Shown in pieces: positions 41,900 to 48,672 of a stretch of DNA of 49,282 nucleotides. The notes beneath the pieces are model-generated. The model ran no database searches and was not told the origin of the DNA. It was given only the letters and a program-made list of their open reading frames with translations. This stretch comes from an uncultured Clostridia bacterium (GTDB lineage Bacteria > Bacillota > Clostridia > Oscillospirales > Oscillospiraceae): assembly GCA_946184165.1 (NCBI GenBank), contig CAMHEN010000005.1, positions 1 to 49,282 of the forward strand, written 5' to 3'. The first letter of the stretch is position 1. Each line of letters starts with the position of its first letter. Both the position numbers and the translations under genes were made by a program.

Positions 41900-42151
41900 C
41901 AGCGCCTGAGGGACAGGCTCCCCTGAAAGGAGATTGTGTGCCGCCGCTGCCTGTGGCAGAGAAAGGCGGTACGGAATCTCCGCAGCCGCGCCTTTGGCGG
42001 GCCGTCGCGAAGCAGGCCCGGGAAAGGCATTGCGGCAAGGCGAAAAAGGCTGGCGCGGCGATTTATCGCCGTGACTGAGGGGTCAACCCCTCCGTCATCC
42101 GCCTTGCGTGAGACGGCGGATGCCACCTCCCCTTTCAGGGGAGGCTTTTTT
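41900..42151. repeat. intergenic repeat of nested hairpins, ending in a terminator
   Basis: Left AGGCTCCCCTGAAAGGAGA (about 41914-41932) and right CTCCCCTTTCAGGGGAGGC (42127-42145) are inverted relatives. Between them are GGCGAT-TT-ATCGCC, GAGGGGT-CA-ACCCCTC and CATCCGCC-N11-GGCGGATG hairpins. The right end CCTCCCC-N5-GGGGAGG with TTTTTT (42126-42151) is a plus-strand terminator. Read from the minus strand, AGGGGAGGTGGC..GACGGAGGGGTT is a pattern common in Firmicutes intergenic repeats. There is no credible ORF; the short in-frame stretches at 41893-42241 have no binding site. Confidence 0.6.
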
Positions 42152-42198: not shown

Positions 42199-45100
42199 TC
42201 ACGCGATCGGAAGGAAGCCGAAGCCGTTTCTTTCGGCGTAAGACTCCGCGGTGCTGCCGGGGACGCCGAGGATGATGAGGCCGTCCACCCTGTCAAAGGC
42301 GTCGGCGGCAATCTTAGCTGCGGCTGCCGGGATGGAAATATACCTGAGATGCGGGCAGTTCGCAAACGCGCGGGAGCCGATCGTCGCGGTCATGTCCGAG
42401 AGCTTCACAAAGGTGAACGCGCCGCCCGCGAAGGCTTCCCCGTCGATTTCCGTCAATGCCGCGGGGAGAATGAAGTCGGGCTGTCCCCAGATGGCGAAGA
42501 GCGTCACATTTTTCTCGGGCATATAATACCCGGTCTCACCGTAATCCGCGCCCGTGCTATTAGCCCAGCCGAGGAAGGTATAGCCCTCGCGTGTCGGCGT
42601 CGGGAGCGAAGCCGGGGCGTCTTCCGTGTCGGCCTCCCACTGGGCATAGAGCGTCACGCTCTCTTCCGCCGTGTAGCTGCCGCCGGGGGCATAGGCCGTG
42701 CCGCTGCCGTCAGCCTTCGTGTTCCAGCCGCTGAAGCTGTAGTCTGTGTAGCGTGTCGCATTCACGCGGCTGGGCGTAACGCTGCCGCCGTTCGCGTTCA
42801 GGATGATGCGGAAGTTTTCCAGTTTCTCCTCACGCTCGGGCTCCGTGTCGGAGAGGGCAAGGTCCCTCCCGGCATATTTTGTCTGACTGTCCGGCGCGCC
42901 TGTGCCGCCGTTTGCGTCGTAGGTGACGGTATATGTGATCTCCTTAAACGTAGCCGTCACGGTCACGTCGCCCGCGGGCATGGTGAAAGCGTTATCCGTC
43001 ACGAGGATCTCCGTCTCGCCCTGCTTGACCGTCAGGGTATCCAGGAGATATCCGGCGTCGGGCGTGACCGTCAAGGTGACAGTTTTGGTGTCGAAGCAAA
43101 CGCTGGATTCTTCTCCGTCAACAACAGCCGTAACAATTCCATTTGCGGTCTCGGGTATCGTGATGGTATGGCGGAAGCGCACAACATTTGTAAGCGCTTC
43201 ATTGTTCGCTGCAATCGTGATGTCCGCCCACTGTGCCTCCGTTCCGGGATAAAACGCATCCTCCAGCCCGCTGCAGCCGTAGAAGGCACTGTAATCAATA
43301 CTGGTCACGCTCGAAGGGATCGTCACGCTCGTCAGCCAGCTGCAGTAGGCGAAGGTAGCGTTGCCTATGCTCGTCACGCCCTCAGGGATCGTCACGCTCG
43401 TCAACCCGGTGCAGAACTCGAAGGCATAGTCGCCGATGCTCGTCACGCCCTCAGGGATCGTCACGCTCGTCAGGCCGCGGCATTCGGAGAAGGCATAGTC
43501 GCCGATGCTCGTCACGCCATTCCCGATCGTCACGCTCGTCAGTCCGCTGCAGTTCTGGAAGGCATAGCTGCCGATGCTCGTCACGCTCGCCGGGATCGTC
43601 ACGCTCGTCAGTCCGCTGCAGTTATAAAAGGCACGTTCGCCGATGCCGGTGACGCCGGGCTGGATAACGACAGATTGAATATCCTCTTTGTTTCCGCGCC
43701 ATGCGTCAGTGGAATTATAGGTAAAACCGTTCATATCTCCCTCACCGGAGATTGTGAGTGTTCCCGTCTCGTCCAGCACCCATGTCAGGTCTCCCCAGGT
43801 GCCGGAGGCAAGGGTCTCCACAAATGTCGCGGTCACGGTCACATTGCCCGCGGGCATGGTGAAAGCGTTATCCGTCACGGGGATCTCCGTCTCGCCCTGC
43901 TTGACCGTCAGGGTATCCAGGAGATATCCGGCGTCGGGCGTGATCGTCAGCATGACAGTGTCGCCCTCCGGCGCTCCTATCTTTTCCGTGGAGACGGTAC
44001 CATTGGCACTCTCGGGTATCGTGATAGCATAGTGGCGGAAGCGCACAACATTTGTAAGCGCATTATTGTACCCTCTAATTGTGATGTCCGCCCACTGTGC
44101 CTCCGTTCCGGGATAAAAAGCATCCTCCAGACTGTTGCAGCCATAGAAGGCATAGATGCCGATGCCGGTCACGCCCTCAGGGATCGTCACGCTTGTCAGA
44201 CGGGTGCATAAATAGAAGGCACCGTTGCTGATGCTCGTCACGCTGTCCGGGATCGTCACGCTCGTCAGTCCGCTGCAGCCATCGAAGGCAGAGCTGCTGA
44301 TGCTGGTCACGCCATTCCCGATCGTCACGCTCGTCAGTCCGCTGCAGCCGGAGAAGGCCTCCTCGCCGATGTAGGTCACGCTCGAAGGGATCGTCACGCT
44401 CGTGAGTCCGCTGCAGCCGGAGAAGGCATCCATGCCGATGCCGGTCACGCTCGAAGGGATCGTCACGCTCGTCAGTCCGCTGCAGCCGGAGAAGGTGAAC
44501 ATGCCGATGCTCGTCACACCCTCCGGGATCGTCACGCTCGTAAGCCCGCTGCAGCCATTAAAGGCATAGTCGCCAATGCTGGTCACGCTGTCCGGGATCG
44601 TCACGCTCGTCAGGCTGCTGCAGCCAGAGAAGGCAGAGGTGCAGATGCTGGTGACACCCTCCGGGATCGTCAAGCTCGTCAATCCGCTGCAGCCAAAGAA
44701 CGCATTATTGCCGATGCTGGTCACGCTCCCCGGGATCGTCAAGCTCGTCAATCCGCTGCAGCGGTTGAAAGCACCGTTGCCGATGCTGGTCACGCTTGCC
44801 GGGATCGTCACGCTCGTCAGCCCTCTGCAGTTTTCGAAGGCCCAGCTGTAGATGCTGGTGACACCGTCAGGAATAACATATTCTCCCTGCAGCCCTTCCG
44901 GTGCACGAATTATCGTATTTCCAGAAAAAAGTACACCATACGCATCGCTGTAATATACTGTATTATTCTCATCGACCCAGATTCCATTTAAGCTGCTGCA
45001 GCCATCGAAGGCAGAGCTGCTGATGCTGGTCACGCCATTCCCGATCGTCACGCTCGTCAGTCCGCTGCAGCCGTAGAAGGCATCGTCGCCGATGCTCGTC

Positions 45101-46629
45101 ACGCTGTCCGGGATCGTCACGCTCGTCAGTCCGCTGCAGCCTTGGAAAGCATAGCTGCCGATACTCGTCACGCCCTCCGGAATTGTGACGCTCGTCAGTC
45201 CGTAACAGCTATTGAAGGCATAGTCGCTTATGCTCGTCACGCTTGAAGGGATCGTGAGATCTGTTATCTGACTATCATTGATATATAGATTATGTGCAAT
45301 AATTAACGGGTTTGATTTGTAATTGGAAAACTGAATCTGGCACCAGGCTTCCAAGCTGCTGATATTGACAGCGGTCAGTCCGCTGCGGTCGTAGAAGGCA
45401 TAGTCGCCGATTCTCGTCACGCTGCCAGGGATTGTCACGCTCGTCAGTCCGTAGCAGTAATAGAAGGCATAGTCGCCGATGCTCGTCACGCCGGGCTGGA
45501 TAACGACCGCTTGAATATTCTCTACGTTTTCGATCCATGGAGAAACTCGTTCATTTTCTATACCTTCATAATATAAATCATAATAATAATCATACATTGC
45601 TCCTGTGCCGGATATGGTGAGTGTTCCCGCGTCATCCAGTACCCAGGTCAGATTATAGCCGCAGGTGCCGGAGGCAAGGGTCTCCACAAATGTCGCGGTC
45701 ACGGTCACGTCGCCCGCGGGCATGGTGAAAGCGTTATCCGTCACGGGGATCTCCGTCTCGCCCTGCTTGACCGTCAGGGTATCCAGGAGATATCCGGCGT
45801 CGGGCGTGATCGTCAGCATGACAGTGTCGCCCTCCGGCGCTCCTATCTTTTCCGTGGAGACGGTACCATTGGCACTCTCGGGTATCGTGATAGCATAGTG
45901 GCGGAAGCGCACAACATTTGTAAGCGCTTCATTGTCCGCTCCAATTGCGATGTCCGCCCACTGTGCCTCCGTTCCGGGATAAAAAGCATCCTCCAGACTG
46001 CTGCAGTAATTGAAGGCATAGTCGCCGATGAAGGTCACGCTCGAAGGGATCGTCACGCTCGTCAGTCCGCTGCAGCCGTAGAAGGCACTGTAATCAATGC
46101 CGGTCACGCTGGCAGGGATCGTCACGCTCGTCAGTCCGTAGCAGTCACAGAAGGCATAGTCGCCGATGCTGGTCACACCCTCCGGGATCGTCACGCTCGT
46201 CAGTCCGCGGCAGTATTCGAAGGCACCGCCGCCGATGCTGGTCACGCTCGAAGGGATCGTCACGCTTGTAAGTCCGCTGCAGCCAGAGAACACATTATTG
46301 CCGATGCCGGTCACGCTCGAAGGGATCGTCACGCTCGTCAGACTGGTGCAACCGCGGAAGGCATATTCGCCGATGCCGGTCACGCCGGGCTGGATAACGA
46401 CAGATTGAATATCCTCTTTGTTTCCGCGCCATGCGTCAGTGGAATTATAGGTAAAACCGTTCATATCTCCCTCACCGGAGATTGTGAGTGTTCCCGTCTC
46501 GTCCAGCACCCATGTCAGGTCTCCCCAGGTGCCGGAGGCGACGGTTTCCGCATAGGCGGCCGAATGGATCCCCGCCAGCAGGACCAGGCAGAGCAGCAGG
46601 GCCGGGATCAAACGCTTCGCAGTTTTCAT
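42199..46629 (-). CDS. giant BspA-like leucine-rich-repeat surface protein
   Basis: Secreted protein of 1476 residues. The signal peptide covers about 1-27 (LLLCLVLLAGIHSAAYA). Three similar blocks follow (about 30-316, 317-940 and 941-1230), each with a GTWGDLTWVLDETGTLTISG start, BspA-type LRRs of about 23 residues (CSGLTSVTIPSSVTSIGDYA), a YPGTEAQWADI unit and, at the end, a PDAGYLLDTLTVKQGETEIP domain. About 1235-1380 holds Listeria-Bacteroides (Flg_new) repeats with GWNTKADGSGTAY and REGYTFLGW, and the last 90 residues are a LRR cap ending NGFGFLPIA. AAAGGAG precedes the ATG. No LPXTG or membrane anchor is seen. Adhesion is the usual inferred role. Confidence 0.93.
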   Translation of the reverse strand: MKTAKRLIPALLLCLVLLAGIHSAAYAETVASGTWGDLTWVLDETGTLTISGEGDMNGFTYNSTDAWRGNKEDIQSVVIQPGVTGIGEYAFRGCTSLTSVTIPSSVTGIGNNVFSGCSGLTSVTIPSSVTSIGGGAFEYCRGLTSVTIPEGVTSIGDYAFCDCYGLTSVTIPASVTGIDYSAFYGCSGLTSVTIPSSVTFIGDYAFNYCSSLEDAFYPGTEAQWADIAIGADNEALTNVVRFRHYAITIPESANGTVSTEKIGAPEGDTVMLTITPDAGYLLDTLTVKQGETEIPVTDNAFTMPAGDVTVTATFVETLASGTCGYNLTWVLDDAGTLTISGTGAMYDYYYDLYYEGIENERVSPWIENVENIQAVVIQPGVTSIGDYAFYYCYGLTSVTIPGSVTRIGDYAFYDRSGLTAVNISSLEAWCQIQFSNYKSNPLIIAHNLYINDSQITDLTIPSSVTSISDYAFNSCYGLTSVTIPEGVTSIGSYAFQGCSGLTSVTIPDSVTSIGDDAFYGCSGLTSVTIGNGVTSISSSAFDGCSSLNGIWVDENNTVYYSDAYGVLFSGNTIIRAPEGLQGEYVIPDGVTSIYSWAFENCRGLTSVTIPASVTSIGNGAFNRCSGLTSLTIPGSVTSIGNNAFFGCSGLTSLTIPEGVTSICTSAFSGCSSLTSVTIPDSVTSIGDYAFNGCSGLTSVTIPEGVTSIGMFTFSGCSGLTSVTIPSSVTGIGMDAFSGCSGLTSVTIPSSVTYIGEEAFSGCSGLTSVTIGNGVTSISSSAFDGCSGLTSVTIPDSVTSISNGAFYLCTRLTSVTIPEGVTGIGIYAFYGCNSLEDAFYPGTEAQWADITIRGYNNALTNVVRFRHYAITIPESANGTVSTEKIGAPEGDTVMLTITPDAGYLLDTLTVKQGETEIPVTDNAFTMPAGNVTVTATFVETLASGTWGDLTWVLDETGTLTISGEGDMNGFTYNSTDAWRGNKEDIQSVVIQPGVTGIGERAFYNCSGLTSVTIPASVTSIGSYAFQNCSGLTSVTIGNGVTSIGDYAFSECRGLTSVTIPEGVTSIGDYAFEFCTGLTSVTIPEGVTSIGNATFAYCSWLTSVTIPSSVTSIDYSAFYGCSGLEDAFYPGTEAQWADITIAANNEALTNVVRFRHTITIPETANGIVTAVVDGEESSVCFDTKTVTLTVTPDAGYLLDTLTVKQGETEILVTDNAFTMPAGDVTVTATFKEITYTVTYDANGGTGAPDSQTKYAGRDLALSDTEPEREEKLENFRIILNANGGSVTPSRVNATRYTDYSFSGWNTKADGSGTAYAPGGSYTAEESVTLYAQWEADTEDAPASLPTPTREGYTFLGWANSTGADYGETGYYMPEKNVTLFAIWGQPDFILPAALTEIDGEAFAGGAFTFVKLSDMTATIGSRAFANCPHLRYISIPAAAAKIAADAFDRVDGLIILGVPGSTAESYAERNGFGFLPIA
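43652..43809. repeat. 158-bp direct repeat within the BspA-like gene, copy 1
   Basis: This stretch is essentially identical to 46382-46539 (a difference at the codon just outside the left edge was seen). It codes for the block-start segment in the third and the first protein blocks. The low divergence beside strongly diverged LRRs indicates recent duplication or gene conversion. Confidence 0.8.
43797..44061. repeat. 265-bp direct repeat within the BspA-like gene, copy 1 (copy 2 at 45663-45927)
   Basis: The 265-base stretch matches 45663-45927 with only two or so differences noticed (ACATTGCCCG against ACGTCGCCCG). It codes for the beta-rich PDAGYLL domain and the start of the next block. A third, clearly more diverged, copy lies at about 42944-43195. 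The exact repeats give substrate for recombination that would remove or add a block. Confidence 0.8.
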
Positions 46630-47462: not shown

Positions 47463-48077
47463 TCACGCCTCCAGTCTGCAGGAGACGAGAGCCAGCGTCC
47501 CGCTCCGGAAGGATATCTCCACATCCGTGACAAAGGCGTTGCTCTGCCCCAGAGTGGTGGGACGGCGCAGCGTCACGTTCTCCGCCTCGTATTTGGCCCC
47601 GCGGATGGTGAGGCCCTCGACTGTCTCCGTCAGCGCGAGCAGCGAGAGGCTGCGGTCGGCCTGATACGGCAGGCGGTACAGGCCGGGGCGCAGGATACGG
47701 AGGAGGGTATCCTCATCCTCCGCCTCCGCCTCCATGCCGAGCCCGGCCGCGTACTCCAGCGTCTGCACATTGGAGAGCAGGTGGTCGAGCCGCCCGCCGA
47801 AGGCGCAGGCAAGGCGCACCGCCTCAAAGCCCTGTTCGGCCGCCCAGCGCACGGCGAGCATGGTGTCCGTGTCGTCCTTCTCCACGGGGTAGCGCAGCAC
47901 CGGCACGTTCTCCGGAAGCGGCCCCGCAAAGGAGTCGAAGTCCCCGAGGATAAGGTCCGGGGTGATCCCCTCCCGCAGGGCGTAGGCAAAGCCCCGGTCG
48001 CAGGCGAGGACGAAGTCCCCCGCCGCCGGGCCGATGGGGGCGTAATCCCCGCCCGCAATGATCACACAGCGTTTCAT
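47463..48077 (-). CDS. thiN: thiamine pyrophosphokinase
   Basis: Enzyme of 204 residues that transfers pyrophosphate from ATP to thiamine, giving thiamine diphosphate. Motifs are LACDRGFAYAL, ILGDFDSF, EKDDTDTMLAV and the AFGGRLDHLLSN thiamine/ATP site, all in the usual order; the length is normal. GGAGGAG precedes the ATG at 48077. Its promoter appears to be partly made by the inverted-repeat element at 48101-48295. No thiamine riboswitch was recognised upstream. Confidence 0.96.
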   Translation of the reverse strand: MKRCVIIAGGDYAPIGPAAGDFVLACDRGFAYALREGITPDLILGDFDSFAGPLPENVPVLRYPVEKDDTDTMLAVRWAAEQGFEAVRLACAFGGRLDHLLSNVQTLEYAAGLGMEAEAEDEDTLLRILRPGLYRLPYQADRSLSLLALTETVEGLTIRGAKYEAENVTLRRPTTLGQSNAFVTDVEISFRSGTLALVSCRLEA

Positions 48078-48097
48078 GGTCTCCTCCGAAGCTGATT

Positions 48098-48126
48098 TTT
48101 ATATGCGTATCGGGTTTAATCAGCAA
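48098..48126 (-). promoter_or_regulatory. thiN promoter candidate, partly within the repeat element
   Basis: On the minus strand TTGCTG (48126-48121) is 17 nt from TATAAA (48103-48098). The -35 and part of the -10 lie inside the inverted-repeat element, so the element supplies most of this promoter. The leader is about 15 nt. Confidence 0.5.
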
Positions 48127-48295
48127 ACCGGCAAACTATTTCGTAGGGGTCGATCCCCGGATCGACCCGAGCCCCTGTTCACTGTACAGGCCATAAGGTT
48201 TCGGGCCGATGAGGGCATCGGCCCCTACGGAGCTAATTTTTTACCGTGCCGCCGTTGATTGAACATACGTTGTTGAGTCAAGCCGATACGCATAT
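48101..48295. repeat. 195-bp palindromic element with 13-bp terminal inverted repeats
   Basis: ATATGCGTATCGG (48101-48113) and CCGATACGCATAT (48283-48295) are perfect inverted repeats, and the following bases continue as an imperfect palindrome. The centre holds CGTAGGGG/CCCCTACG arms around two hairpins, GGTCGAT-N6-ATCGACC and GGGCCGAT-N6-ATCGGCCC. There is no ORF. This layout is that of a MITE-like element, and the central CGTAGGGG..GATCGACC pattern is common in gut Firmicutes. Confidence 0.75.
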
Positions 48296-48400
48296 CGTTT
48301 TATAAACCCTATCACAGCGGCGCCGGTTTTGCAAGGGCCTGGCTTTTGTTCTTGTCTCGCGGACACCTGTTCTTTGTGCAATTTAACAGATTAAAGATTT

Positions 48401-48475: not shown

Positions 48476-48536
48476 ACCAATATCAGAAGAATACCTCTGA
48501 CGCCATCAGGATCACAACAGGAAACCGACGGCCGAG

Positions 48537-48643
48537 GAACTCTGGAGAAGCTCCGCGCACCGGCGCCCGTTCCGGTCACGCTGCAGGAGTGCCGAAGGTG
48601 CAAGGCCGAAGGGCCGAATCTCTCAGGCAAAAGGACAGAGCGT
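48537..48643 (+). ncRNA. glycine riboswitch (single aptamer visible)
   Basis: The conserved glycine aptamer pattern is clear: a P1 arm ACTCTG (about 48539-48544) pairs with CAGAG near 48636-48641, and the core carries GTGCCGAAGGTGCAAGGCC and GAATCTCTCAGGCAAAAGG, the hallmark of the gcvT motif. Only one complete aptamer is recognised; a tandem second aptamer was not found. A terminator-like hairpin follows at 48673-48696 and the gene after it is a Na+/alanine-glycine symporter, which suits glycine control. Whether glycine turns expression on or off is not decided by the sequence alone. Confidence 0.92.
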
Positions 48644-48672
48644 TCAATCTTTTTGAGGTTGGACGGTTTATC

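Follow-up and report, generated by a model that had tools for sequence, protein, structure and literature searches.

The locus studied here raises the question of which promoter reads thiN, the start of which lies beside a small inverted-repeat element in the window, i.e., the whole stretch of 49,282 nucleotides that was analysed from an uncultured Clostridia bacterium of the Oscillospiraceae. The thiN gene (47463..48077, minus strand) is preceded by a Shine-Dalgarno sequence, GGAGGAG, at 48087-48081, and its product, which scored above the cut-off for PF04263, PF04265 and TIGR01378, is a genuine thiamine pyrophosphokinase. A sodium:alanine symporter gene (from 48748; Pfam PF01235) runs divergently from it, with a glycine riboswitch at 48532..48648 on the plus strand (Rfam RF00504, 56 bits). 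A riboswitch in the thiN leader was considered as well and rejected, because Rfam showed only this divergent glycine riboswitch.

An IS1595-family MITE and its autonomous partner

The inverted-repeat element with perfect 13-bp ends that the earlier note had described is present, with ATATGCGTATCGG at 48101-48113 and 48283-48295. Over 26 nt the arms have a complementarity of 85%, and the whole 49-kb window contains only two perfect 13-nt pairs whose starts are 100-300 nt from each other. As single-stranded DNA the element folds with z = -6.6 against dinucleotide shuffles. Judged by the target duplications found across the family, the element proper measures 193 bp (48102-48294). The last A/T at the outside of each 13-bp end is therefore flanking DNA, and the terminal inverted repeats (TIRs) are perfect over 12 bp and imperfect over about 25 bp. 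The left TIR (48102..48126, plus strand) is on the thiN side and reads outward on the minus strand as TTGCTG, 17 nt and TA, about 25 bp of it being conserved in 112 family ends; the right TIR is at 48270..48294 on the minus strand. The flanking target duplication, GATTTTTA at 48094..48101 and TCGTTTTA at 48295..48302 (both plus strand), matches at 5/8 positions in AT-rich DNA, and would be either decayed or doubtful at this copy.

This element belongs to a non-autonomous IS1595-family MITE family that is dispersed in rumen and gut Oscillospiraceae. Several family copies are present in the genome of the window (a 165-contig, 67%-complete assembly), and dozens in related genomes. A scan of named genomes located the TIR in MAGs of Oscillospiraceae/Ruminococcaceae from rumen and gut (RUG13571, RUG14036, RUG12517 and RUI069 among them), and a few TIR-bearing records carried the label Clostridia or Lachnospiraceae. 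When the TIR is taken as starting at TATGGG, the 8-bp target duplication is exact in 34 of the 59 distinct two-ended copies and agrees in at least 6 of its 8 positions in 51 of them; some copies are neighbours, parted by exactly one 8-bp duplication (e.g., within L055 and within L197).

The same TIRs, each time with an exact target duplication, bound full-length insertion sequences at L170:1084-2076 (RUI069; AAAGGTAT), at L192:3643-4635 (a roe deer omasum MAG; TATTATAA) and at L255:4642-5645 (1004 bp, an IMG/VR contig; TAATAAAA). AT-rich targets, TIRs and the 8-bp duplication are thus common to the MITEs and to these ISs of 993-1004 bp. Transposase typing covers L170 and L255, the ORFs of which match PF12762 (DDE_Tnp_IS1595) and PF12760 (Zn_ribbon_IS1595), and L170 matches the IS1595 transposase model NF033547 in addition; L192 is assigned as a partner by its TIRs and exact duplication. 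Because these TIRs surround IS1595 transposase genes with exact duplications, the element was classed as an IS1595-family MITE, and the MITE-like insertion suspected in the earlier note has in this way obtained a family, a duplication length and an autonomous partner. Matches to the partner transposase were found in 3 of 102 genomes of the genus (G064, G102 and G048), and the autonomous partner was absent from the 67%-complete assembly of the window's genome. The L255 IS is intact and lies, in a viral contig, where a sigma-factor-like ORF ends; the transposase of the MITE may therefore be transferred between hosts by a phage or prophage.

The family shares TIRs, 8-bp duplication and AT-rich targets with the ISs of the IS1595 family, which have an ISXO2-like transposase (PF12762, PF12760, NF033547), but the MITE lacks the transposase and the interior of the window copy is not IS-derived. 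A MITE of the same family, ISHwa6 of Haloquadratum walsbyi, is listed in Table 4 of PMC3852290 with 165 bp, IR 25 and DR 8. Compared by lengths only, it agrees with the family described here in size class and in the lengths of TIR and duplication; it differs in its archaeal host, and its entry in that paper mentions no palindromic core. In view of this listed element with IR 25 and DR 8 the kind of element is already known, while the family itself has seemingly not been described so far. A well-delimited IS1595 MITE family together with its autonomous partner can be used to annotate uncultured rumen Oscillospiraceae MAGs.

The promoter of thiN in relatives and in the window

Fourteen relatives, with ThiN proteins 55-91% identical to that of the window, came from a search of the full genus; the 21 relatives looked at first had no syntenic thiN neighbourhood and so supplied no empty sites. 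In 12 of the 14, thiN is divergent from the symporter gene, and a glycine-riboswitch-like sequence, read by eye, lies between the two genes in 11 of those 12; of the remaining two relatives, G102 has a contig that stops short of the symporter gene and G077 has a different neighbour. None of the 14 carries the MITE between thiN and its promoter. All 15 thiN loci, the window included, contain TTGnnn-17-TAnnnT with a TG extension (TGn) on the thiN strand, a motif present in 0.1-0.75% of 200-nt shuffles, with one match per locus except for a second, distant match in G077. From the end of the -10 to the thiN start there are 29-42 nt in 12 relatives; the distance is 77 nt in G102, 179 nt in G060 and 228 nt in the window. 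The -35, the spacing and the TG are kept although thiN itself, in a comparison with four relatives, has an identity of only 54-76% at its fourfold sites.

In the window this conserved native motif is located at 48306..48334 on the minus strand, with TTGCAA at 48334-48329, 17 nt ending in TGA, and TAGGGT at 48311-48306. When the window flanks are rejoined without the element and one duplication, the leader aligns with those of the empty relatives. The -10 reads TAGCTT in most relatives and TAGGGT in the window and in G060, the closest relative; as these two share it, TAGGGT predates the insertion and is not decay caused by the MITE. The empty-site comparison, which the earlier note had itself named as a check, therefore speaks against its suggestion that the element became the thiN promoter: the motif conserved in 14/14 relatives is intact in the window on the far side of the element, and a loss of the ancestral promoter was not borne out. 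With the native promoter retained there, the MITE sits inside the thiN 5' leader. Seen in a single genome, a promoter-like motif at the end of a transposon tempts one to read too much into it, and it loses its weight when relatives with empty sites reveal that the gene has kept its own promoter.

The MITE thus landed, with high probability, between the ancestral thiN promoter and the ribosome-binding site, and thiN is most likely still read from 48306-48334 through the element. An IS1595 transposase would have moved it in trans into the AT-rich 5' leader, with an 8-bp target duplication created at insertion and decayed since. Transcription would start near 48299 and read through the element, which would lengthen the leader from about 21 nt to about 220 nt. 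The predicted leader of about 222 nt (48078..48299, minus strand) contains the whole element as a hairpin and its RNA folds with z = -5.3, far better than shuffles; the long stem stops short of the Shine-Dalgarno sequence, on its upstream side, and little effect on thiN translation would be expected. Transcription through such a strong leader hairpin could be attenuated; the thiN strand showed no terminator-like site.

Insertion into a leader is not exceptional here. G060 has another hairpin repeat of about 155 nt, unlike the MITE, in the same thiN leader (L111:2123-2305), and in G098 the glycine riboswitch and the start codon of the symporter gene are separated by a 118-bp copy of the MITE family with the exact target duplication TTTATTTA (L112:2539-2656), at a place where G101 has an empty site; the G098 copy could alter riboswitch output. 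These two cases show that leader insertions recur in the group.

The promoter-like end of the element and other roles

The minus-strand -35 and partial -10 that the earlier note had placed in the left end, with a leader of about 15 nt, exist as described. The candidate TTGCTG-17-TATAAA occupies 48098..48126 (TTGCTG at 48126-48121, TATAAA at 48103-48098) without a TG extension, and a start from it would fall near 48091, giving a leader of 14-15 nt. By hexamer count it is slightly better than the native promoter (8/12 against 7/12 consensus matches), which counts against the retained promoter, although the latter has the TG extension and the conservation. A sigma-70 promoter scan at 9/12, a threshold that the element candidate also falls below, found none on either strand, and both candidates were accordingly judged by conservation and not by score.

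Both promoters might be active: besides initiation at the native promoter upstream, there would be a weak additional start in the element end, and the short, hairpin-free thiN transcript from the latter would bypass the hairpin. Both motifs are intact, and putative promoters borne on MITEs have been described elsewhere, e.g., in Correia elements (PMC2229807); the element candidate lacks a TG extension, however, and occurs in no other thiN locus, and we regard this arrangement as possible but on the doubtful side. Read outward, the TIR has the consensus TTGCTGAGTTAAAGCCGATACCCATA and is followed by AT-rich target; TTGCTG is found at 65 of 112 family ends, and the promoter-like end is a property of the TIR common to most of them. 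In a further reading, the TIR of this IS1595 lineage would carry a built-in outward half-promoter, in which TTGCTG stands exactly 17 nt from the terminal TA and the preferred AT-rich target completes the -10, so that the copies would act as portable weak promoters and thiN would gain a second, hairpin-free start. We consider this idea unlikely; should outward promoter activity of the TIR be demonstrated, its dozens of copies would offer a natural test set for the rewiring of leaders by mobile elements.

A regulatory role of the element at thiN, post-transcriptional or by attenuation, is decidedly improbable; in this reading the leader hairpin would serve as a processing site or as a pause or termination structure. 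The strong leader fold and the different hairpin repeat in the same leader of the sister genome are consistent with such a role, and for Neisseria and Yersinia, cleavage of MITE hairpins or an effect of them on mRNA stability has been proposed (PMC2229807). However, no terminator was called on the thiN strand, and the insertion is common to no relative, which gives no sign of selection for it. The Correia/NEMIS elements of Neisseria resemble the present one as small intergenic TIR elements that are transcribed as long stem-loops and have putative outward promoters (the leader transcript is a predicted one here), and differ in their TIRs and in the RNase III processing proposed for them (PMC2229807).

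Least of all is it probable that the left end is now the main thiN promoter, with TTGCTG supplied by the TIR, TATAAA by the TIR end plus target and a leader of about 15 nt: the motif is present at 17-nt spacing and sigma-70-like hexamers score higher at family ends than in nearby DNA (8/12 or more at 30% of ends and at 3.6% of flank positions), yet the conserved promoter is retained upstream, the high scores stem from the TIR itself, and family ends within 60 nt face gene starts no oftener than gene ends (18 vs 20, by rough ORF calls). Within TTGCTG, the CTG is 96-98% conserved though off the promoter consensus, while conservation is lowest, at 62%, for the second T of TTG, which is critical for a promoter, a pattern as expected for a transposase site and not for a promoter.

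The palindromic core and other repeats of the window

The inner core of the element (48142..48231, no strand assigned) consists of two facing REP-like palindromic units, CGTAGGGGTCGATC.. and ..GGCCCCTACG. It is missing from other copies of the element's own MITE family, and it also occurs without TIRs and inside another MITE type with the TIR GGCTGTCTCAAAA (L011, L012, L060, L061 and L064), as if a single palindromic repeat were riding on two unrelated mini-transposons.

REP/BIME palindromes are the class with which the core is compared. The two facing units of about 28 nt each, palindromic and dispersed through the genome, are like them; the difference is that no convincing RAYT/Y1 transposase was found in the seven genomes searched. 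A REP/RAYT origin of the core was rejected, the PF01797 search having given one weak match, in G060, and none in the window's genome.

The hairpin repeat of about 155 nt seen in the thiN leader of G060 begins with ACTGTGAAAGC..GCTTCCACAGTAAA and has a second stem further along (L260 and L265 of the window's genome, G000). It has 24 matching places in that genome and 10 in G060. The other perfect 13-nt inverted pair of the window, at 41918-42143, has CCTCCCCTTTCAGGGGAGG-like ends with starts 213 nt apart and is probably a further dispersed repeat. It lies close to the 3' end of a large repeat-protein gene, an ORF of 1476 aa (42199-46629, minus strand) with repeated GCSGLTSVTIPxSVTSIG motifs, resembling, by these motifs, the bacterial leucine-rich-repeat (BspA-like) surface proteins.
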